Source of the DNA: an uncultured Anaerolineae bacterium
Lineage (GTDB): Bacteria; Chloroflexota; Anaerolineae; Anaerolineales; Villigracilaceae
Assembly: GCA_903838415.1 (NCBI GenBank)
Contig: CAILYI010000037.1
Span: 1-64,000, forward strand
DNA length: 64,000 bases
Reading direction: 5' to 3'
Notes under the pieces: generated by a model
Told to the model about the DNA's origin: nothing
Databases searched by the model: none
What the model saw: the letters and a program-made list of their open reading frames with translations, nothing else
In this document: positions 3,230 through 48,602 of the stretch, in pieces
Numbering within the stretch: position 1 is the stretch's first letter
Layout of the letters: every line of letters begins with the position of its first letter
Translations under genes and position numbers: made by a program

Positions 3230-3258
3230 TTGCTATTTCTCGCACATAAACCTATAAT
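3230..3258 (+). promoter_or_regulatory. Promoter of the FHA-mtnP-SEDS operon
   Basis: TTGCTA (3230-3235, 4 of 6) lies 17 bp from a perfect TATAAT (3253-3258). It sits about 28 bp upstream of the first ATG of the FHA gene pair. Confidence 0.65.
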
Positions 3259-3286
3259 TATCTCAGTATCATGCGCAGGGATAAAA

Positions 3287-4099
3287 ATGAGTAACCAATT
3301 GAGTGACATCGAAAAACGAATTCAAGACCTGATCGAGGTACACTTGGTGAAGTATCTGCCAGTACCGAGCACTCAGGAACTTATCACGCAACAATTAGCG
3401 GAAATATTACGCGCCAATTTTCCGACTCAAAATCCGGAAGATGCGCCAAGGATAATTCCGGATCATTACTTGCTGGTCGTTCATCCTGCTAAAATGGCAC
3501 AATGGCAAAGTGACTCGCGCCTGATGGATGAACTCACTGAAGTCTTCAAGCTGGTGGCGGATGAATCTGGTATAAAATTTACCAACGCACCTTCCATTGA
3601 GCTTACAGCAGACCCTTCCATGCCCTTTGACGAAATCGACATCCGAGCCAGCAGCGAAGAAACCATCGCGGAGACCCAAAACTTGACCCAGAGCAGCAGT
3701 GATGAAATTCCCAAGCGGGCTGCGTTCTTAATTGTTGGTGGTACGAAAGTTTTCCCGCTTGATCAGGCCGTCACCAACATCGGGCGGCGCCTCGATAATC
3801 ACCTGGTGGTGGATGATCCGCGCGTCTCGCGCTATCATTCCCAGATACGGTATGTGCGGGGACGTTTTATTATCTTTGATCTGAATTCCACGGGCGGGAC
3901 TTTTATCAACGGCCAGCGCACAGCGCAATCCGTTCTCTACCCAGGCGATGTAGTTTCCCTGGCGGGGTTACCGATCGTATTCGGCCAGGATAACCCTCCG
4001 CCGACAATTCAGACCGGTGATACGGCACCCCTTTCGCCTGTATCCAGCGAGCGCAAGACGGTAAATCTGGCTAACGAATCAGACGACGACCCAACATGA
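3287..4099 (+). CDS. FhaA-like protein: DUF3662-type N-terminal domain plus FHA domain
   Basis: The 270-residue protein has an N-terminal domain (about 1-115) resembling the FhaA N-terminal region of Actinobacteria. An acidic, Ser/Thr-rich linker carrying several possible phosphosites follows. A C-terminal FHA domain (about 145-245) shows the core elements IGR, S-R-x-H and a S/N-T-G-G-T loop. FHA domains bind phosphothreonine peptides. In Actinobacteria the orthologue sits with fhaB, a phosphatase, rodA, pbpA and Ser/Thr kinases and regulates wall synthesis; here a second FHA gene and a SEDS/PBP fusion follow, but no kinase is present in the window. The ATG at 3287 has AGGG upstream. It overlaps the next gene by 4 bases. 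Confidence 0.85.
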   Translation: MSNQLSDIEKRIQDLIEVHLVKYLPVPSTQELITQQLAEILRANFPTQNPEDAPRIIPDHYLLVVHPAKMAQWQSDSRLMDELTEVFKLVADESGIKFTNAPSIELTADPSMPFDEIDIRASSEETIAETQNLTQSSSDEIPKRAAFLIVGGTKVFPLDQAVTNIGRRLDNHLVVDDPRVSRYHSQIRYVRGRFIIFDLNSTGGTFINGQRTAQSVLYPGDVVSLAGLPIVFGQDNPPPTIQTGDTAPLSPVSSERKTVNLANESDDDPT

Positions 4100-4548
4100 G
4101 CGGCTTTATATTGCTTGGCTTGAGAATCCTGTCAGCCATAGCACTGTACGCGTTTCTGGGATGGGCGCTTTATTTATTCTGGCGCTCGCTACGACAAGAT
4201 GCGCTGGCGCTAAGTGCGCGTCAGGTTTTGCCGCTGACTCTTCTCGTCAGTTCGCCGGATGAAGAAGACCGATTATTGCATTTCACGGAAAATGACGTGA
4301 TCATCGGGCGTGACTCCGAGTGTCAATGCATCCTGACTCACGCAACCGTCTCCGCGCGGCATGCCCGGCTGGCATTTCATCACAGCCAATGGTGGTCAGA
4401 TGACTTGCTATCAACCAATGGCACGAAATTAAACGATGAGCCGCTGCAAATGCCCACCGTGGTACTCAACGGGGATACAATAAAATGCGGTCAGGTGACA
4501 TTGACTATCATGTTTGACGCACAAATTCATTCCACTGCAGGAGAATAG
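4096..4548 (+). CDS. FhaB-like membrane-anchored FHA domain protein
   Basis: The 150-residue protein has one N-terminal transmembrane helix (about residues 5-28) and a cytoplasmic C-terminal FHA domain (about 65-140). The domain has the IIGRDSEC, SARHA and STNGT signature residues. The architecture matches FhaB of the actinobacterial wall-regulation cluster. The ATG overlaps the stop of the upstream FHA gene (ATGA), so the two are translationally coupled and probably made in fixed ratio. Together with the downstream SEDS/PBP fusion this suggests phospho-dependent regulation of wall synthesis at the membrane, which is inferred from context. Confidence 0.85.
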   Translation: MSGFILLGLRILSAIALYAFLGWALYLFWRSLRQDALALSARQVLPLTLLVSSPDEEDRLLHFTENDVIIGRDSECQCILTHATVSARHARLAFHHSQWWSDDLLSTNGTKLNDEPLQMPTVVLNGDTIKCGQVTLTIMFDAQIHSTAGE

Positions 4549-4550
4549 AC

Positions 4551-5417
4551 ATGACCCAAACACTCGCTGTTGCTGTTATTGGTGGCTCAGGCCTGTATGC
4601 CATGAAAGGGCTGACCGAGACCACTGAGCACATCGTTGATACACCCTTTGGTAAACCAAGTTCTCCCATCGTTACCGGCTTACTGGAAGGCCAGCGAGTT
4701 GCGTTTCTGGCGAGGCATGGCATCGGTCATTCCATCACCCCAACCGAGGTCAATTATCGGGCCAACATTTACGCGTTAAAAAAGCTGGGCGCAACGCGGA
4801 TTGTCAGCATCAGCGCCTGCGGCTCCTTGCGCGATGATTATGCTCCCGGCGATATCGTCATCCCAGACCAAATCTACGACAATACCAAGAGCCGCCGCCG
4901 CTCGTTTTTCGGGGAAGGAATGGTTGCACATGTCGGCGTGGCAGATCCGTTCTGTCCGGACTTAAGCCAACAAATGTTCGAGGCGGTCAAAGGAGCAGGA
5001 GCGGTCGTCCATAAAGGCGGAACGCTCATCACCATTGAAGGGCCACGCTTCTCCACCAAAGCCGAATCCAACGTATTCCGCTCCTGGGGCATGTCCATTA
5101 TCGGTATGACCGCCTCGCCCGAAGCGTTCCTGGCCCGCGAAGCAGAAATTTGCTACAGCACCATGGCGCATGTCACTGATTATGACGTCTGGCATATTTC
5201 CGCAGAACCGGTCACTGTCGATATGGTCATCCAAACCTTGATCAAAAACACCATCGCAGCCCAAGAATCGCTCCGGTTGCTGGTGAAAAGTTTAGGCGAC
5301 GCCACATCCTGCAATTGTGGGAATGCCCTTTCCGATGCGCTCATCACCAATCAAGCCGCTATCCCGGCCGAGACACGCGAAAAACTCGACTTGCTGGTTG
5401 GCAAATACCTGAAATGA
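4551..5417 (+). CDS. mtnP: S-methyl-5'-thioadenosine phosphorylase
   Basis: The 288-residue enzyme cleaves methylthioadenosine with phosphate to adenine and methylthioribose-1-phosphate in the methionine salvage and polyamine by-product pathway. Family signatures are the phosphate-binding GGSGLY at the N-terminus, the RHG motif, the central GP-R-F-S/T-K-E segment and the MTASPEAFLAREAEICY block. The Asp of TDYDVW fits a 6-aminopurine (adenine) preference rather than inosine. The ATG follows CAGGAG. It begins two bases after the FHA gene stop, so it belongs to the same operon although no functional tie to the wall genes is evident. MTA-inosine or general purine phosphorylase activity is a weaker alternative. 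Confidence 0.9.
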   Translation: MTQTLAVAVIGGSGLYAMKGLTETTEHIVDTPFGKPSSPIVTGLLEGQRVAFLARHGIGHSITPTEVNYRANIYALKKLGATRIVSISACGSLRDDYAPGDIVIPDQIYDNTKSRRRSFFGEGMVAHVGVADPFCPDLSQQMFEAVKGAGAVVHKGGTLITIEGPRFSTKAESNVFRSWGMSIIGMTASPEAFLAREAEICYSTMAHVTDYDVWHISAEPVTVDMVIQTLIKNTIAAQESLRLLVKSLGDATSCNCGNALSDALITNQAAIPAETREKLDLLVGKYLK

Positions 5418-5426
5418 TCCAATCAA

Positions 5427-5476
5427 AATACGCAGTACGTGCGTAAAAGATCAAAAATTACCGCGTACTGCGTATT
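5427..5476 (+). terminator. Inverted repeat between mtnP and the SEDS/PBP gene
   Basis: A 13-bp perfect inverted repeat (AATACGCAGTACG at 5427-5439 with its complement at 5464-5476) has a 24-base AT-rich loop. No T run follows, so it may be an attenuator or a processing hairpin rather than a full terminator. It ends 18 bases before the presumed start of the next gene. Confidence 0.45.
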
Positions 5477-5494
5477 CATAACACCATCAACCAT

Positions 5495-7933
5495 TTGTTT
5501 GCAACCTACCGTCCTCCGGCACAAATCCAAAGCCGCCTGCTCAAGCTGGCAGCGCTTTTTTTGTCCCTGTACGCGCTGATTCTGACGCTTTCTCCGGTCG
5601 CGCGCGCACGTTCCTGGGACGCAGATTTGCGCTGGTCACACTGGCTGGGCCTCGGCATTTGGGCGCTGGCAGTTTTTCTGGTGCATTGGCAAATTACGCT
5701 CCGCGCCCCAGACGCTGATCCATACCTGCTGCCAGCTGCTGCCCTGCTGGCAGGTTGGGGATTGTTGAGCATCTGGCGGCTGGATGTGGATTTCGGCCTG
5801 CGGCAGGCCATTTGGCTGGCTTTTTGCGTGGCGGTTTTCCTGGTTGGATTGAGATTGCCGGGCAATCTCGAAATTTTACGCCGTTATAAGTATATTTTCC
5901 TGACCTTCGGCTTATTCCTGACCGCCCTCACCCTGATCTTTGGTACCAATCCTGGCGGCAGCGGACCGCGCCTGTGGCTGGGATGCTGCGGCTTATACCT
6001 GCAACCGTCCGAACCGCTTAAGCTGCTGCTGGTAGTTTATCTCGCCGCCTACTTTGCCGATCGCATTCCCATCCGCACGCGACTGCTGCCCCTGCTCATC
6101 CCGACATTGTTCCTGACGGGACTTGCCCTGATCATTCTGATCATTCAACGTGACCTGGGAACTTCCAGCATTTTCATTTTCCTGTATGCCACAATGGTCT
6201 ACCTTGCAAGCGGAAAACGGCGCCTGCTGCTCGGGTCGTTGGGACTCCTGGTTCTCGCGGCCGTCGTCGGATATTTTTTCGTCGATATCATCCATGTCAG
6301 ACTGGCAGCCTGGGTTGATCCCTGGGCTGATCCATCCGGGCGTTCCTACCAGCTGATTCAATCGATTCTGGCCGTGGCAAACGGCGGATTATTCGGACGC
6401 GGCCTGGGCATGGGCGCGCCCGGTCTTGTCCCCGTGGCTCATTCAGACTTTATTTTCACCAGTATCGCCGAAGAAAGCGGGCTGGCTGGCACGCTGGCCC
6501 TTTTGGGTTTGCTGGCCGTGATCGTCATGCGCGGATTCATCATCGCCATTCGCGCTGCCAGTAATTTTCGCCGCTTATTGGCTGCAGGCATCACCATTTA
6601 TTTTGGCGCGCAGAGCATACTCATCATCGGCGGGAATCTGCGTCTTTTACCGCTGACCGGCGTCACATTACCTTTCGTTTCCTATGGCGGCTCATCGCTG
6701 CTGACAGCGTTCATCGGCCTGTTGATTCTCATCCAAATCAGCAACGAGGTTGACGAAGAAGCGGCCGCCCTGCCCACTCCGCAGCCTTTTCTGAACATGG
6801 CTGGATTGGTTTGGATCGGGCTGCTGGCTTGCGCTCTGACCAACGGCTGGTGGGCCACCATCCGCGCTGATGATTTGCTCATCCGCACTGACAATCCGCG
6901 CCGCGCCATTGCTGATCGCTTTGTGCCTCGCGGCGGGATTCTCGACCGTCAGAACCGCGCCATCACCATCACCAGCGGCGCGCCGGGCACATATTCACGG
7001 CAATACCTGGTTCCGCAACTCTCATCCATTACCGGATACACACATCCCATTTACGGGCAGGCGGGACTTGAAGCCTCGCTGGATCCTTATCTGCGCGGAT
7101 TACAGGGCAATCCCAATCTACTCATCTGGTGGGAGCATATTCTTTACGGCCAGCCACCTGCTGGATTGAACGTGCGGCTGAATATCGATATCGACATCCA
7201 GAAAAAGGCTGATTACTTATTGGGGACGCATTCCGGCGCGCTGGTGCTGATCAACGCGCAAACGGGAGAAACCCTGGCGATGGCATCTCACCCAACTTTT
7301 GATGCCAATTTGATGGATACCATCGGCGAAACCTTGCCCAACGCCCCCAACGGCCCACTGTTTAATCGTGCCACACAGGGACTCTACCCTGTCAGTCCCG
7401 CCATCAAGCCGCTGATGGATGCCACTTATGGGGCTGCCGCGCCGCCCAAAGATGAACTCGTCAACTTTTATCAACGACTGGGTTTTTACAACACCCCCGA
7501 ACTGCGCCTGCCCGCCGCCGCTGCCGCCAAACCAGGGACTCTGGATAATCTGAGCATCAGCCCTGTACAAATGGTCTCAGCCATTGCCGCGCTCAGCAAT
7601 CAGGGACTTTGTCCCGGCGTTCAAATCGCCAGCGCCGTGGAAACGCCGACCGAAGGTTGGGTAATCCTGCCAGCGCCGGAAAATCCCATCCAATGCCTGC
7701 CCGCTGACGACGCAAAACGGGTAACGGAATCACTTCAGAGCAGCGACAAGCTGTTTTGGGAGTATACCGGCAGCGGCTTTGACAAATCCCAGCCGGTTAC
7801 CTGGTATCTGGCCGGGACGTTGGAGAACTGGTCGGGCACGCCGCTGGCAGTCGTTGTCATCCTTGAAGAAAGCGCGCCTATCACCGCTGCGGAGATCGGC
7901 CACGGAGTATTACAACAGGCCATCAAACCATAA
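5495..7933 (+). CDS. SEDS (FtsW/RodA) glycosyltransferase fused to a degenerate penicillin-binding transpeptidase domain
   Basis: This 812-residue protein joins two normally separate partners of peptidoglycan synthesis. Residues 1 to about 435 form a multi-pass SEDS polymerase with the conserved HSDFIF segment holding the catalytic Asp (D318) and a late GGSSLLTAF block. A further membrane helix (about 440-458) leads into an extracytoplasmic PbpA-like domain with the entry motif P-R-G-x-I-L-D-R. The transpeptidase motifs look altered: where SxxK is expected the chain reads V-S634-P-A-I-K638, with serine one residue off. The KTG position is most simply read as Y757-T-G-S, without the lysine. 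The start is uncertain; TTG at 5495 is the first usable codon and has no clear ribosome site. It follows the FHA pair and mtnP. Confidence 0.85.
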   Translation: MFATYRPPAQIQSRLLKLAALFLSLYALILTLSPVARARSWDADLRWSHWLGLGIWALAVFLVHWQITLRAPDADPYLLPAAALLAGWGLLSIWRLDVDFGLRQAIWLAFCVAVFLVGLRLPGNLEILRRYKYIFLTFGLFLTALTLIFGTNPGGSGPRLWLGCCGLYLQPSEPLKLLLVVYLAAYFADRIPIRTRLLPLLIPTLFLTGLALIILIIQRDLGTSSIFIFLYATMVYLASGKRRLLLGSLGLLVLAAVVGYFFVDIIHVRLAAWVDPWADPSGRSYQLIQSILAVANGGLFGRGLGMGAPGLVPVAHSDFIFTSIAEESGLAGTLALLGLLAVIVMRGFIIAIRAASNFRRLLAAGITIYFGAQSILIIGGNLRLLPLTGVTLPFVSYGGSSLLTAFIGLLILIQISNEVDEEAAALPTPQPFLNMAGLVWIGLLACALTNGWWATIRADDLLIRTDNPRRAIADRFVPRGGILDRQNRAITITSGAPGTYSRQYLVPQLSSITGYTHPIYGQAGLEASLDPYLRGLQGNPNLLIWWEHILYGQPPAGLNVRLNIDIDIQKKADYLLGTHSGALVLINAQTGETLAMASHPTFDANLMDTIGETLPNAPNGPLFNRATQGLYPVSPAIKPLMDATYGAAAPPKDELVNFYQRLGFYNTPELRLPAAAAAKPGTLDNLSISPVQMVSAIAALSNQGLCPGVQIASAVETPTEGWVILPAPENPIQCLPADDAKRVTESLQSSDKLFWEYTGSGFDKSQPVTWYLAGTLENWSGTPLAVVVILEESAPITAAEIGHGVLQQAIKP

Positions 7934-7936
7934 GAA

Positions 7937-7971
7937 TCAAAAAGCCAGACAATGAATGCCTGGCTTTTTGA
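7937..7971. terminator. Bidirectional terminator
   Basis: A TCAAAAAGCCAG / CTGGCTTTTTGA perfect inverted repeat (7937-7948 and 7960-7971) lies between the converging SEDS/PBP and ferredoxin genes, with A and T runs on both sides. Confidence 0.9.
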
Positions 7972-7982
7972 TGAAAAGCGAA

Positions 7983-42832: not shown

Positions 42833-43957
42833 TTATAATTCCAGCGCCTTGTGGCGCATAATTACGCTTTCGACCAACCCGACGGCGATCAGATTCGCCA
42901 CCAGTGAACTTCCGCCATAACTGACAAATGGCAGAGTCAAACCGGTCGCGGGCATTAAATTGAGATTGACACCGATGTTGACAATCGACTGAAAAGCAAT
43001 CAGCGTAGCGACACCATAAGAAATCAACGCGCCGTAAGCATCACGCGAAATCCGCGCCGCCCACAGGCAACGCCAGACGATAAACATCACCAATCCAATA
43101 ATCAAAACAGCGCCGACAAATCCCAGCTCGTGGGCAGTGGTGGAAAAAATGAAATCGGACCAGCGCACTTTCAGGAAACGTAACTGAACCTGGGTGCCGT
43201 GTCCGTAGCCCTGCCCGAACCAGCCGCCGGAACCGATCGAGATCAAAGCCTGCTGAATATTGTAAATTTCACCATAACGGGCATTTGGGTCAGGCGAGAC
43301 AAAGTTCAGCACTCGGCGCAGTTGATAATCTTGCACGACACCTGCTTGCACCAGGATTGGAAAGGAAACTCCGATGGCGGCAATTCCCGATAGGGCATAC
43401 CCCAGCAAGTGCAAAACTGGAATTCCGGACATCCACAATAAAACGAACCACAACACAATCAGCACGATGGATGTGCTCAAGTTCGGCTGCAACAGCACCC
43501 AAATAGTAATACCCATTGCCATCAGAAGGCTGCGGATGGTCCATTTGGGCTGATTCATCTCGTGGAGATGTCGAACAAAGAAATGTGACATGGAGAGAAT
43601 TAAAACCAGCTTGGCAAATTCAGACGGCTGAATAAAAACCAACGTTGTGCGGAACCAACGCGCGGAGCCAAACAGGGCAGCGCCGATCACGTTCAATGCC
43701 AGAAGGACAATGATAATGCCAATATACAAGGTAGTGCTGAGGGAAGACCACAACCGATAGTCAATCCCCGCAGTGATCAGGAATAGAACAAATCCAATCA
43801 GGGCAAAAATAATTTGACGATTGACGAGTGGAGTGGTTACAGTTAATTCATAATTCCCGGCTAACGCCGAGCGGATCATCGTGATACCAATAATGACCAG
43901 AATTGTCACCGCCCCCAAAAGCCAGAAATCGAAATGTCGCCAGAAACCTCCACGCAT
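42833..43957 (-). CDS. rodA: Rod-shape SEDS peptidoglycan polymerase RodA
   Basis: The 374-residue integral membrane protein has about ten helices and the SEDS motifs L-K-V-R-W-S-D-F-I-F (catalytic Asp) and F-V-S-Y-G-G-S-S-L near the end. It polymerises glycan strands from lipid II and normally partners with a class B PBP; mrdA, in the same unit, supplies an intact one. It lies 46 bases after minE. A second SEDS protein in this window (5495-7933) is fused to an altered PBP domain, so RodA here is most likely the elongation enzyme. Confidence 0.94.
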   Translation of the reverse strand: MRGGFWRHFDFWLLGAVTILVIIGITMIRSALAGNYELTVTTPLVNRQIIFALIGFVLFLITAGIDYRLWSSLSTTLYIGIIIVLLALNVIGAALFGSARWFRTTLVFIQPSEFAKLVLILSMSHFFVRHLHEMNQPKWTIRSLLMAMGITIWVLLQPNLSTSIVLIVLWFVLLWMSGIPVLHLLGYALSGIAAIGVSFPILVQAGVVQDYQLRRVLNFVSPDPNARYGEIYNIQQALISIGSGGWFGQGYGHGTQVQLRFLKVRWSDFIFSTTAHELGFVGAVLIIGLVMFIVWRCLWAARISRDAYGALISYGVATLIAFQSIVNIGVNLNLMPATGLTLPFVSYGGSSLVANLIAVGLVESVIMRHKALEL

Positions 43958-44003
43958 GTTTATGTTCCACGCGGCGCGTCAATCAGCAGCCGCAAAGACA
44001 ATC

Positions 44004-44264
44004 CTAACCCGACCGACGTCGCGCAGCCACACGCAAGGGAATATCCGCCACCAGGCGCTGAGCGCGGCCTTCGTGCTCCACCTCAATGCGCACACCGGAT
44101 GGATCGATTTCAATATATTTTGAGATGGCCGCAATCAAATCGTCTTTTAAGGATTCCAACATAACGGGCGTCAAATCCATCCGGTCGTGGATCAGAACCA
44201 GTTGAAGCCGTTCCTTGGCGCTGGATGCGCTCTTTTTCCCTGAGAGACGTTCAAAGAAGTTCAT
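44004..44264 (-). CDS. minE: Cell division topological specificity factor MinE
   Basis: The 86-residue protein begins with M-N-F-F-E-R-L, the membrane-targeting helix of MinE. It continues with A-K-E-R-L-Q-L-V-L-I-H-D-R, the MinD-contact segment, and ends in the dimerisation domain with I-S-K-Y-I-E-I-D. It stimulates MinD ATPase and, with MinC, moves the division inhibitor away from mid-cell. The start lies one base after the minD stop. Presence of MinE indicates an oscillating or dynamic Min system rather than a DivIVA-type one. Confidence 0.93.
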   Translation of the reverse strand: MNFFERLSGKKSASSAKERLQLVLIHDRMDLTPVMLESLKDDLIAAISKYIEIDPSGVRIEVEHEGRAQRLVADIPLRVAARRRSG

Positions 44265-44265
44265 C

Positions 44266-45060
44266 TTACTTCCTCCCTGTCAGCTTGCTGAGACGATCCC
44301 ACAGACCATGAGATTCAAGGTCCATGAAAGGAACTTCTTCTCCGTTTAAGCGGCGGGCGATATTTCGAAAAGCCTGCCCGGCCTTGGTCTTTCCTTCCAA
44401 CGACAAGGGCGTACCTTTGTTTGAAGCGACAATGATATTTTCATCTTCAGGGACAATTCCAATCACGTCAACACGCAAGAGGTCGTAGACATCATCGACC
44501 GAAAGCATATCTCCGCGCCGGACCATGTTGGGATTGAGACGGTTAATAATTAACGACGGCGAGGCTTTTTCCTCCGCTTCGAGCAAGCCCATCACACGAT
44601 CAGCGTCACGTACGGCTGACATTTCCGGATTGGTCACGATCAGCACTTTGTCAGCGGCGGCAATTGAATTTCGGAAGCCTCGTTCAATTCCAGCGGGCGA
44701 ATCGATCAGAATCCAATCCAGGTCGGGGCGAAGCTCATCGCACAGGCGCACCATATCGCTTGGCGAAACCGCGTTTTTGTCACGAGTTTGCGCCGCCGGG
44801 ATGAGAAACAGTTCAGGGAGACGCTTATCACGAATCATGGCCTGGCGGACGCGACAACGCCCTTCGATAATATCCACAACGTCATAGACGATGCGGTTTT
44901 CCAATCCCATGACAACGTCGAGATTGCGCAAACCGATATCGCCGTCGATACAGACAACTTTTTGTCCTTCCGAAGCGAGAGCTACGGCAATGTTAGCAAC
45001 GGTGGTGGTTTTGCCCACTCCACCTTTGCCAGATGTAACAGTGATCACTTTTGCGGTCAT
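44266..45060 (-). CDS. minD: Septum-site determining ATPase MinD
   Basis: The 264-residue protein has the deviant Walker A motif T-S-G-K-G-G-V-G-K-T-T (about residues 9-19), the D-G-D-I-G-L-R-N-L-D block and I-D-S-P-A-G-I-E as Walker B. The C-terminal amphipathic membrane-binding helix (L-W-D-R-L-S-K-L-T-G-R-K) is intact. It recruits MinC to the membrane and is released by MinE. GGGAG precedes the ATG. It lies between minC and minE with gaps of 12 and 1 bases. Confidence 0.96.
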   Translation of the reverse strand: MTAKVITVTSGKGGVGKTTTVANIAVALASEGQKVVCIDGDIGLRNLDVVMGLENRIVYDVVDIIEGRCRVRQAMIRDKRLPELFLIPAAQTRDKNAVSPSDMVRLCDELRPDLDWILIDSPAGIERGFRNSIAAADKVLIVTNPEMSAVRDADRVMGLLEAEEKASPSLIINRLNPNMVRRGDMLSVDDVYDLLRVDVIGIVPEDENIIVASNKGTPLSLEGKTKAGQAFRNIARRLNGEEVPFMDLESHGLWDRLSKLTGRK

Positions 45061-45072
45061 TGTCTACTCCCA

Positions 45073-45744
45073 CTAACTTGAGATCCATGTTTCGGCCTGT
45101 AACTGGCCGTTTTTGATGCGCACAATTTCGGGCTGGGGTTTGCTGCGACGCTCCGGTGCAGTTGCGATTTCGCTTGCGACGCGAAGTTGCGTGGGGGATA
45201 AATCGAGCGCGCAAACCACCGCATCGCGATTCCCCTGCGCACCAGCATGCACTACACCACGCAGGCGTCCCCAGATAATTACACTTCCACCAGCGATGAC
45301 CTCGGCGCCAGGGTTTACATCCCCAAAAACGACGATATGCCCGGCAAATTCGATACGGGTACCCGAGCGAAGGGTCTTGTTGATCCATAATGCGGTCTCG
45401 TCATCGATTCCCTTGGCGGCTTGCATTTCCTGCGGGCGCGTTTTATGGATGCGAGTGGCCAGCCCAAGGATTTGCGCGGTGTTTTCCGTTGTTGGAGAAT
45501 TGCTCAAAACAGCCCAAAGCATGATTCCCCGCTCAGAAAGCTGGTCACGCAATGGAGTGAGTTCAGCAGATTTAAGCACCTGATTGCCTACATCAAGCGC
45601 CAGACGCGCACCTTGAAAAAAGGAGGGCTGCTCTTCGATTCGTTCGAGCAAAGCGCGCTGAATGACAGGCCAGCTGGCGTCACCCAACGAAACCAATAGC
45701 CCATCACGAATACCTTTGATCTGAATAAGAGAGGAATCTTTCAT
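45073..45744 (-). CDS. minC: Septum-site inhibitor MinC
   Basis: The 223-residue protein has an N-terminal FtsZ-inhibiting domain (about 1-95) and a C-terminal beta-helix domain (about 115-215). The latter has the alternating V-V-F-G-D-V-N-P-G-A-E-V, G-G-S-V-I-I-W-G-R-L-R-G and V-V-H-A-G-A pattern that defines MinC. It blocks FtsZ assembly when held at the membrane by MinD. I chose the ATG at 45744; a TTG at 45759 is an alternative but falls at the expected transcription start of an internal promoter. It follows mrdA closely. Confidence 0.93.
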   Translation of the reverse strand: MKDSSLIQIKGIRDGLLVSLGDASWPVIQRALLERIEEQPSFFQGARLALDVGNQVLKSAELTPLRDQLSERGIMLWAVLSNSPTTENTAQILGLATRIHKTRPQEMQAAKGIDDETALWINKTLRSGTRIEFAGHIVVFGDVNPGAEVIAGGSVIIWGRLRGVVHAGAQGNRDAVVCALDLSPTQLRVASEIATAPERRSKPQPEIVRIKNGQLQAETWISS

Positions 45745-45760
45745 AGTTTTTTGAAGCAAA

Positions 45761-45766
45761 ATTATA
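45761..45766 (-). promoter_or_regulatory. Internal -10 box ahead of minC
   Basis: A perfect TATAAT on the minus strand lies between the mrdA stop and the minC ATG, 16 bases upstream of that ATG. It could let the min genes be expressed apart from mre/mrd. Confidence 0.45.
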
Positions 45767-45774
45767 GCACACCC

Positions 45775-48105
45775 TTACGGAGCAGTACCCTGCTGGGCTG
45801 AATCAATCGCTTTTAGCTCGAAATAAGCCTCAAGCACTTTGCGAACAATCGGGGCAGCCACGCTCGCACCTTCACCACCATTGTAGCAAAAAGCAACTAC
45901 GACAATTTCCGGATCTTCATAGGGACCATAGACCACTGTCCATGAATGCGTGGGCCAGGAACCAAACTGACAGCGATTTTGTGCCTGCGCGACGTTGTCG
46001 CAATATTCCGCGGTACCCGTCTTGCCAGCGACCGGAATCTCAAAAGGAGTTGTAAATTCCTGGGTTCGACCGGTGAAAACGGCGTTGAGCGTGCCTGTCG
46101 GGTCAGAGGTTACCGCCAGTCGCATCCCTTCCTGGATTTTTTGAACCACATCGGGCCTGACAGTCTTTTTCCGACCGGTCGCAGTGCAATAGGCGCCGTC
46201 ACATTGAAAATCATTGATGACCGGATCAGTTGTAATATCCCATTGATTGTAACCAACAAAAGGTGAAATCTGCCAGGCACCTTGATGGAATATAGCCAGG
46301 CCCTGATCATCACTGCCACACCAGCCCGAAACCGGTTCATCCAGATCATTCTTACCCTGACAAACTGTATACAAAACCTGATTCGATATCCCAAAACCGG
46401 TATCACACCATCCGGTGCTAACTAGTCCAGCTTTGTCTTGTGCGCTGCATTGATGATATAGATTGCCATCAATATCACGCCAGATGAAGAGTGGCTTGCC
46501 ATTATTGTCGGTAATCTCACGGACCAGCGTAGGCTGGACGTGTTTGCCGTCATTCGCAATGGTCGCAGCCGATAACAGCACCTGCAGCGGGGTGGACAAC
46601 ACGTATCCTTGTCCCACGCTGGCGATGTAAGTATCGCCGGTGGACCAGTTTTCGCCACGATTGATGCGCTTCCACTGCGGAGACGGGATGAGTCCCTTTG
46701 CTTCACCCAACAATTCGATGTTGGATTTCTGGTCATACCCGAGCGCACGAGCATATTCCCGCAAGCGTTCAATCCCCAGGCCTTGCTTGATCTCATTTTT
46801 ATAACCGCCACCCAGCTTGTAAAAACAAACATTGCTGGAATAAGCGATGCAGTGTAAAAAATCGATGGTGCCGAAACCGGCTTCGTTCCAATCAACGAAG
46901 GGACGTTCACGCCCCGGATCATTTGGCGAAAACGATTCAGTCAAAACCAGCTGACCGGGAGCATCAATAATCTGGTCCAGGGTGACGACACCCTCATTCA
47001 ATGCGCCTGTAGCTGTGGATAGCTTGAAAACTGATCCCGGCGGAAACTGGTCAGAGACGGCATGATTCAACAATGGCTTGGCAGGATCCTGCGCCAACTG
47101 GTTATAGTAATAGGCTGGGATAAAGCGCGCCATGCGGTTATTTTCATAGGTCGGGAAAGATACCATCGCCAATACTTCCCCGGTTTTGGGATTCATGGCG
47201 ATCACTGCGCCCGTGGTGATACGAATGCGGCCAAAATATGAATTCCAGAAATTGATTTCACCCGTCAGTGCGGCATCAGCCGCTTTTTGCAGGCGGGTAT
47301 CGATGGTGGTAATTAAATTGGCCCCCGAAACGGGAGGCAGCGGAGGCTCCAGGTTGCGAAGTTCCTGCCCGGCGACATCCACTTCAATCACTCGTTTGCC
47401 CGGTTTCCCGGCCAGGTCATCTTGAAAATAGGCTTCCACGCCTGAATATCCCACCTTGTCGCGGTTGGGAAGAAAACCCTGGCTGCGATAAAGTTCCTCG
47501 TCACGAGCGGGGATGGGACCAAGAAATCCGATCACGTCGGCGGTCAGGTAACCGGTTGGGTAATCACGGACAGGTTCAATTTCCACGCTGACACCCGGCC
47601 AATCCATGGTTTTCTCGCGCACGATACGCGCGGTTTCTTCCGAAATATTGCACTGAATTTTGACCGGACTATAAGGCGCGATGGTATCCTGCAGCTCAAC
47701 CAATTGCGCAATACCAGGTCCAGGCACACAGGCCGAAACCAGCTTGGCGTCATCCAGGGTGCCGCTATTGACCGGGACGCCAATCAAAGTAGACAGCTCC
47801 CGATAAACTTCCTGAATGTCCGCCGGATCATTGGGCAAATTCGCCGGGGTAATGACCACATTGTAAGACGGAACATTTCGGGCCAGAATGGTTCCATTCC
47901 GATCGTAAATAATGCCGCGCAAGGGTGGAACACTGATGGTACGCGTCCGATTTTCATCCGCTTGCGCCAGGCGAGTCTCGTATTGTAGAACCTGTAAATT
48001 GAATAGCTGGGCGACCAAAACAGAAAATCCCAACGCCAGCACCGCATAAAACACGAATACCCGCCAGGATTCAATATTCACACGAGGAACTGAAGGTGAA
48101 GTCAT
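45775..48105 (-). CDS. mrdA: Penicillin-binding protein 2 (class B transpeptidase, MrdA)
   Basis: The 776-residue protein has one N-terminal membrane helix (about 16-38) and a pedestal domain beginning around P-L-R-G-I-I-Y-D-R. The intact transpeptidase domain has the S-V-F-K motif (P-P-G-S-V-F-K), an S-S-N motif and the K-T-G-T motif in V-A-G-K-T-G-T-A-E. An insertion of about 150 residues with paired cysteines lies between the last two motifs, which is longer than in E. coli PBP2. It cross-links peptidoglycan with RodA during elongation. The ATG at 48105 has GGAGG upstream and overlaps the mreD stop (ATGA). Confidence 0.94.
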   Translation of the reverse strand: MTSPSVPRVNIESWRVFVFYAVLALGFSVLVAQLFNLQVLQYETRLAQADENRTRTISVPPLRGIIYDRNGTILARNVPSYNVVITPANLPNDPADIQEVYRELSTLIGVPVNSGTLDDAKLVSACVPGPGIAQLVELQDTIAPYSPVKIQCNISEETARIVREKTMDWPGVSVEIEPVRDYPTGYLTADVIGFLGPIPARDEELYRSQGFLPNRDKVGYSGVEAYFQDDLAGKPGKRVIEVDVAGQELRNLEPPLPPVSGANLITTIDTRLQKAADAALTGEINFWNSYFGRIRITTGAVIAMNPKTGEVLAMVSFPTYENNRMARFIPAYYYNQLAQDPAKPLLNHAVSDQFPPGSVFKLSTATGALNEGVVTLDQIIDAPGQLVLTESFSPNDPGRERPFVDWNEAGFGTIDFLHCIAYSSNVCFYKLGGGYKNEIKQGLGIERLREYARALGYDQKSNIELLGEAKGLIPSPQWKRINRGENWSTGDTYIASVGQGYVLSTPLQVLLSAATIANDGKHVQPTLVREITDNNGKPLFIWRDIDGNLYHQCSAQDKAGLVSTGWCDTGFGISNQVLYTVCQGKNDLDEPVSGWCGSDDQGLAIFHQGAWQISPFVGYNQWDITTDPVINDFQCDGAYCTATGRKKTVRPDVVQKIQEGMRLAVTSDPTGTLNAVFTGRTQEFTTPFEIPVAGKTGTAEYCDNVAQAQNRCQFGSWPTHSWTVVYGPYEDPEIVVVAFCYNGGEGASVAAPIVRKVLEAYFELKAIDSAQQGTAP

Positions 48106-48602
48106 ACCATTTCCTCCACTGGGTAAACCCACAAAGCAAGGTCACGAATAAAGGAATACACCGGAAGCGCCAGGAAGAGGTTTACAAATACGCTCGGCAA
48201 AGTGATTAAAGCCAATGCGTCACTAAATGGGATAGGCGTACCGCGAAACACGAGCGCCAGGTATGTAATCAGGTGTAAAAGCAGGGTGGAAAAAAAGGTC
48301 ACTGTAAAAAGCGCCAGAATCGGAGTCTGCCAAATCTGACGTAGAACATTGCGGGCCAAAGCCACCGCCAATAAATAAGCTGTTAGCAAGACCAACGGCT
48401 GCAAACCTGAGACAAAGGCCGCCATCAAACCAGCCAATGCCGCCCAATGCCAGGATGACTGAACCTGCTGTTGGAGCGCCCAGGTAATCAGAATCAACAA
48501 AACCAGATCTGCCGCGCCAGAAAGCAAGGTAATGCGACTGACCACGGCTGTCTGCAGCATGAATGCCAGCGCCAATAACGGAATTGCCACCAGATTTTTC
48601 AT
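48102..48602 (-). CDS. mreD: Rod shape-determining protein MreD
   Basis: The 166-residue membrane protein has about five helices and the size expected of MreD, with no enzymatic motif. Its identity rests mainly on position between mreC and mrdA and on the hydrophobic profile. The ATG at 48602 sits one base before the mreC stop; frames starting further upstream at 48740 run through mreC and lack support. It belongs to the elongasome at the cytoplasmic membrane. Confidence 0.87.
   Translation of the reverse strand: MKNLVAIPLLALAFMLQTAVVSRITLLSGAADLVLLILITWALQQQVQSSWHWAALAGLMAAFVSGLQPLVLLTAYLLAVALARNVLRQIWQTPILALFTVTFFSTLLLHLITYLALVFRGTPIPFSDALALITLPSVFVNLFLALPVYSFIRDLALWVYPVEEMV

Follow-up and report, generated by a model that had tools for sequence, protein, structure and literature searches.

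We report that one open reading frame in the 64,000-nucleotide stretch of DNA analysed here (the window) encodes a SEDS polymerase in one chain with a homologue of PbpA-type class B PBPs (bPBPs) which, by its sequence, is not a working D,D-transpeptidase. We consider it probable, at roughly 70%, that this chain is a third SEDS peptidoglycan polymerase, reckoned besides the mre-linked RodA and the dcw-linked FtsW, whose cognate PbpA-type bPBP has become a pseudo-transpeptidase that is fused in cis and activates the SEDS part, with cross-links made by other enzymes. The evidence suggests that the dead PBP domain has been retained as a structural activator after ceasing to be an enzyme.

Architecture and genomic setting

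The frame at 5495-7933 on the forward strand begins with a TTG codon and continues for 812 residues with no internal stop, in the frame and at the coordinates of the initial annotation. The claim made there that SEDS and PBP share one chain is borne out by three Pfam matches within the 812 residues: the SEDS domain (PF01098) at residues 100-418 (E 2.7e-73), the PbpA dimerisation domain (PF21922) at residues 479-560 with 27.1 bits against a cut-off of 27, a margin of 0.1 bit, and a transpeptidase match (PF00905) that is split in two, with its best piece at residues 581-641 (E 1.1e-11). No match to PF00912 (GT51) was found in the fusion up to E 1, and the chain is thus not of the class A type. 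The premise that SEDS and class B PBPs are normally separate proteins does not always hold, as PMC10449877 states that natural single-ORF fusions such as this one exist, citing the Rhodococcus RHA1 genome. The features of the locus are:

3230-4099, forward strand: FhaA-like gene with a C-terminal FHA domain (PF00498, E 4e-17; PF12401 FhaA_N, E 0.0016, under its cut-off)
4096-4548, forward strand: FhaB-like gene, N-terminal hydrophobic stretch and FHA domain (PF00498, E 1e-14)
4551-5417, forward strand: S-methyl-5'-thioadenosine phosphorylase gene (mtap), within the cluster (TIGR01694, 301.9 bits, cut-off 274.85)
5495-7933, forward strand: SEDS polymerase and transpeptidase-dead PbpA-type class B PBP in one 812-residue chain
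5714-6760, forward strand: SEDS part matching solved FtsW, residues 74-422 (8bh1_A, Z 36.6, 327 residues, rmsd 2.3)
6446-6448, forward strand: codon for the SEDS aspartate, D318 (126 of 127 SEDS rows have D, the remaining one a gap)
6782-6862, forward strand: helix 430-456, candidate PBP membrane anchor (AlphaFold secondary structure)
6929-7174, forward strand: PbpA-type pedestal (dimerisation) domain, residues 479-560 (PF21922)
7235-7930, forward strand: degenerate transpeptidase domain, residues 581-812 (PF00905 fragments; model strands at 581-599 and 754-790)
7385-7408, forward strand: SxxK site reading YPVSPAIK, with Pro635 (7397-7399) in the Ser position (alignment)
7763-7771, forward strand: KTG site (residues 757-759), reading YTG (alignment)
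7936-7972, forward strand: hairpin after the stop codon, 16-nt arms, 94% complementary, 5-nt loop, putatively a terminator

An AlphaFold model built from 34 related fusions is near full-length (mean pLDDT 90.2, pTM 0.83) and agrees with both the SEDS and the PBP folds, with 12 long helices up to residue 416, another at 430-456, and then the pedestal and a mixed alpha/beta domain. Comparison with Foldseek and VIA-align superposes residues 74-422 on Pseudomonas aeruginosa FtsW (8bh1_A, Z 36.6 over 327 residues), and the best structural neighbour is Mycobacterium tuberculosis PbpA (3upn_A), which matches residues 471-811 with Z 38.6 over 336 residues (rmsd 2.8). The helix anchor, the PF21922 pedestal and the transpeptidase fold together identify the second half as a PbpA-type class B PBP. 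The pedestal that had been proposed is therefore present at residues 479-560, but its description as a built-in structural pedestal understates what is retained, since the whole PBP fold persists over 471-811 and the N-terminal part of the transpeptidase is as constrained as in intact proteins.

In the SEDS half, D318 is kept within HSDFIF, as had been noted, together with adjoining conserved residues, and across 127 SEDS rows the Asp is present in 126, the Glu of QPSE in 119 and the Arg of the ECL4 region in 125, all other rows being gaps. The window's genome has three SEDS genes, and it has its own RodA/MrdA and FtsW/FtsI pairs besides the fusion; near-complete genomes with the fusion likewise have three (4 of 4; G005, G112, G503 and G354), and those without it have two (2 of 2; G176 and G208). 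The separate intact pair that the annotation placed in the window is there, with RodA at 42833-43957 and MrdA/PBP2 at 45775-48132 (PPGSVFK, SSN and KTGT), adjoining mreB, mreC, a weak mreD match, minC and minD, so that the mre-linked pair is the one at 42833-48132 and not the fusion. SxxK and KTG are retained by the other bPBPs of the genome (MrdA on the window's contig, an FtsI-like protein on C146 and a MecA_N-type protein on C137), and within this genome the loss of motifs is therefore specific to the fusion.

The C137 protein (locus L005, 1399-3633, reverse strand; 744 residues, MecA_N and PBP_dimer domains, SxxK and KTG intact) is a candidate for cross-linking in trans, and the genome also has five YkuD matches. 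A class A PBP-like protein of 836 residues is encoded on C279 (locus L009, 403-2913, forward strand; PF00912 E 9e-26, PF00905 E 5e-5). Compared with solved PBP1A, it has ALMDPGF for the GT51 motif STEDERF and Arg for the Glu of KxxE, as well as GTLLT for SxxK and no KTG, and both of its domains look dead. ORFs of similar length with a likewise weak PF00905 match occur in G005 and G112.

A regulatory or division-related role was put forward as a possibility in the initial annotation; the neighbours of the fusion are FHA-domain genes and not fts genes. Searches with the window's FHA proteins (phmmer) place FHA genes upstream in at least 23 of 40 loci, and also next to separate rodA and pbpA genes on contigs from a Rubrobacter (one) and Clostridia (two). 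The actinobacterial operon fhaA-fhaB-pstP-rodA-pbpA-pknA-pknB is similar to this cluster. A link to a PASTA kinase was considered and rejected: no PASTA match was found in the window's genome, and of its 15 Pkinase matches none lies on the window's contig, so that control through the FHA proteins is a guess from the neighbourhood. Between mtap and the fusion gene there is a perfect 13-nt inverted repeat (AATACGCAGTACG at 5427-5439 and CGTACTGCGTATT at 5464-5476, with a 24-nt spacer), which may bind a regulator or represent a small repeat element.

Active site, distribution and selective constraint

Alignment of the C-terminal half with solved PBPs and intact PbpA proteins, taken together with the model, matches the PBP fold and leaves the catalytic motifs without a counterpart. 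YPVSPAIK (631-638) aligns to YPPGSTFK, such that the Ser position is occupied by Pro635 and the Lys position by Lys638; the SxN-bearing segment is deleted, and the KTG position reads YTG (757-759). In place of the SxxK, SxN and KTG of a PbpA-type enzyme the chain thus has P..K, a deletion and YTG. The altered motifs of the initial annotation are thereby confirmed, and at no point in the sequence and profile alignment do a Ser and a Lys come together in active-site register.

The query has a match somewhere in 269 of the 301 genomes sampled from the phylum, mainly through other SEDS genes; a further search was made in 249 genomes of the class. Loci were taken from the strongest matches listed and constitute a sample, not a census. 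We scored 121 PBP rows, and four were dropped: L120 (PBP cut by a contig end), L146 (337 residues, doubtful), L118 (partly broken, one motif kept) and L155 (cut by a contig end, two motifs kept). Eleven SEDS rows with no PBP match at the locus stand outside the count unless a PBP was found on another contig. The 117 remaining loci include 114 from Chloroflexota and three from elsewhere (L015-L017). All three transpeptidase motifs are absent in 82 and present in 35, with no intermediates among the 117.

Mapping of the fusion within this sample gives 59 fused chains, of which 58 are transpeptidase-dead and one (L077) is intact, and 57 unfused rodA-pbpA pairs, of which 23 are dead and 34 intact; one further dead protein (L136), whose frame runs off its contig, is assigned to neither class. 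Transpeptidase death is therefore not peculiar to the fusion, as it is shared by 23 of the 57 unfused pairs and on the trees appears to predate most fusion events. A near full-length homologue with 51-58% identity is found in all 17 other genomes of the window's family that were sampled, two of them single-contig (G005 and G112), which argues against both chance and an assembly accident, and all 18 sampled members of the family are fused and dead.

Over the 82 dead proteins, the columns of the catalytic Ser and Lys hold neither residue in 68, Ser only in 13, Lys only in one, which is the window protein, and both in none; SxN and KTG are both gone in all 82. A relocated catalytic dyad was sought among Ser, Lys, Tyr and His columns and rejected: S598 is the only Ser column occupied in a majority of the proteins and lies outside the active-site motifs, no further Lys column reaches a majority, and the remaining candidates were Tyr631, which is structural, and another Tyr that is shared in part. 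Strongly conserved non-catalytic residues left in the domain, among 34 aligned fusions, are R625, G629, Y631, P690, W770 and E791. One dead fusion (L071, in G168) has the site PPGSTLFP, in which the Ser is retained and the Lys lost, and is a possible intermediate of decay.

Selective constraint was compared between dead and intact pairs of proteins at equal SEDS identity, using 76 dead and 31 intact rows, from which the pairs drawn are not independent. Within the 0.45-0.50 bin of SEDS identity (945 dead and 154 intact pairs), identity is 0.38 in dead and 0.39 in intact pairs for the pedestal, 0.50 and 0.49 for the N-terminal part of the transpeptidase, and 0.24 against 0.40 for the active-site and C-terminal part, on which the other bins agree. 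Among close dead pairs, dN/dS is 0.03-0.16 for SEDS (12 pairs) and 0.10-0.33 for the last part of the transpeptidase (11 measurable of 12), compared with 0.03-0.13 for that part in four close intact pairs, some of the dS values being above 1. The higher values in the dead proteins indicate relaxed selection in the last part of the domain. Judged from these substitution patterns, the pedestal and transpeptidase core are shown to be under continued purifying selection, and the dead PBP half as a whole is still selected, less strictly at the former catalytic region.

Probable order of loss and fusion

On the SEDS tree (127 rows) activity requires two changes and the fused state seven, and on a 115-row tree built from SEDS, pedestal and transpeptidase N-part columns the numbers are two and six. 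In the latter, 79 dead rows form one clade (SH-aLRT 90, or 99 if the intact L119 is included) with three main branches: one of 9 rows, 5 of them unfused, one of 19, with 16 unfused, and one of 51, with 2 unfused. Since two of the three branches consist mostly of unfused pairs, PbpA probably lost its activity first and was fused later, several times, although change counts alone do not separate fusion from fission. The simplest reading is one ancient loss in an unfused PbpA followed by repeated fusion. L075 lies outside the 79-row clade and may be a second, independent loss. A strictly single loss fares worse: forcing all dead rows together lowers the log-likelihood by 34.9 units (AU p 0.029; 83 dead and 36 intact rows), in a test that is weak in that the group was named after the tree had been seen and that counted L120 and L146, later dropped, as dead.

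Fusion as the cause of death was also rejected, given the 23 dead unfused pairs and the one intact fusion. An independent-pairs test of fusion against death found 5 pairs on starred branches and had no power. In some unfused pairs, such as L044, the two genes are adjacent and in the same frame with a single stop codon between them, so that fusion through loss of a stop codon would be easy. The one fusion with all three motifs intact (L077, 5656-8556, reverse strand, in G141) has as its sister L053, in which the genes are separate and overlap. Within a single genus, L119 has an intact separate PbpA, and L118 a PbpA of 380 residues that keeps KTG and has lost SxxK and SxN (G305 and G361 for L118 and L119), perhaps through a recent break or an assembly error.

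Proposed role of the dead domain and known systems

We propose that the SEDS part would remain in complex with the helix, pedestal and transpeptidase core of the PBP, that this bound PBP half would keep SEDS in its active state or switch it on, in the manner of active bPBPs acting on RodA and FtsW, and that other enzymes would cross-link the new strands. The polymerase activity of the chain, its activation in cis, the cross-linking in trans and control by FHA neighbours are alike inferred. Published precedents are consistent with such a role. According to PMC8078798, bPBP pedestals contact SEDS extracellular loop 4 and activate the partner, and the transpeptidase activity of FtsI homologues is dispensable; PMC8078798, PMC12713402 and PMC10257715 describe several bPBPs that are required although their transpeptidase activity is not, and catalytically dead SpoVD is stated in PMC12713402 to function still through SpoVE. 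PMC10449877 describes an engineered Escherichia coli RodA-PBP2 fusion that polymerises lipid II, and stimulation of RodA by the PBP2 helix alone. If the helix is enough, the conserved transpeptidase core must be explained in some other way. Also against an activator are the intact fusion L077, which indicates that fusion does not need death, the 13 dead proteins in which Ser still occupies its column, and the relaxed selection on the last part of the dead domain.

Among the alternatives, we think it unlikely that the transpeptidase-like cleft has been reused as a sensor of stem peptides, muropeptides or proteins that switches the polymerase. Such a role would account for a core fold (471-811) kept without catalysis and for the six conserved non-catalytic residues, and the adjoining FHA genes suggest a regulated synthase, but the old active-site surroundings are the fastest-changing part, contrary to what one conserved ligand would lead us to expect. 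Slightly less probable still is that the PBP half is a functionless, decaying remnant, tolerated because another PBP cross-links, with the polymerase working independently of it. Faster divergence of the active-site and C-terminal part (0.24 against 0.40) and the shortening of the last part in members of the window's family and of f4 (ORFs of 757-818 residues, for example L078, L079 and L108-L111) fit this, yet the full frame is kept in 18 of 18 sampled family genomes, conservation of the pedestal and of the N-terminal transpeptidase part matches that of intact proteins, all measurable close pairs give dN/dS values far under 1, and invariant residues occur throughout the domain in the 34 aligned fusions.

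We give little credence to the view that the protein, its active site rebuilt, continues to act as a D,D-transpeptidase or to bind penicillin: S634 lies one residue before the expected Ser position, Lys638 is kept in the window protein and 13 dead proteins have Ser in the column, but the complete lack of Ser and Lys together, the universal loss of SxN and KTG and the failure to find an alternative conserved Ser/Lys pair among the 82 all oppose it. That the fusion and losses are artefacts of assembly or gene calling in metagenome-derived contigs is scarcely believable. The window's assembly does consist of 311 contigs with 8.63% contamination, and L118 looks partly broken beside its intact congener L119, but the same fused dead form is present in the single-contig genomes G005, G112 and G503, and the dead form is common to a supported clade of 79 rows.

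Returning to the activator reading, a broader form of it, which we hold tentatively and at somewhat under even odds, is that a large Chloroflexota clade has a third, beta-lactam-insensitive synthase, composed of SEDS and a permanently bound dead PBP activator beside FHA regulators, whose glycan is cross-linked only in trans or left uncross-linked, and whose partner lost its activity once or twice in the distant past and later became fused several times. The evidence for activation of SEDS by class B PBPs apart from cross-linking comes from mutants engineered in a handful of model organisms; a naturally dead bPBP across a large clade, with pedestal and core constrained, would indicate that evolution separates the two and, if true, would be natural proof that the activating role of a bPBP can outlive its chemistry. 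The fused chain, with its activator covalently attached and predicted to have no transpeptidase activity, would be a ready-made construct for enzymology and structure. The reading also predicts a polymerase beyond the reach of beta-lactams through its own partner, and raises the question of which enzyme cross-links the product. No report of a natural, ancient, clade-wide dead bPBP partner of SEDS was found among the open-licence papers searched.

The closest known system is the actinobacterial RodA-PbpA pair (M. tuberculosis PbpA, PDB 3upn and 3un7), which shares the PF21922 pedestal, the best structural match (Z 38.6) and upstream FHA genes, but is made of two proteins with an acylatable transpeptidase, whereas here there is one chain without the catalytic residues, on a contig with no Pkinase match and in a genome with no PASTA match. 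E. coli RodA-PBP2 and FtsW-FtsI have the same SEDS fold, catalytic Asp, single PBP helix, pedestal and transpeptidase fold, but are separate chains with an active transpeptidase and with Rod or divisome partners. Natural SEDS-PBP fusions (Rhodococcus RHA1, Atopobium parvulum PDB 4r1g and others) are likewise one polypeptide, SEDS followed by PBP; from the chain numbering 522-949 we infer that the A. parvulum protein is a fusion with an active transpeptidase, and unlike the dead domain of the window it keeps PGSsFK and was solved with penicillins. The laboratory-dead Bacillus subtilis PBP2B, Staphylococcus aureus PBP1 and Clostridioides difficile SpoVD S311A, as described in PMC8078798 and PMC12713402, resemble the fusion in that a SEDS partner can work without bPBP catalysis; those proteins are engineered point mutants, whereas here the loss is natural, complete and common to a large clade.
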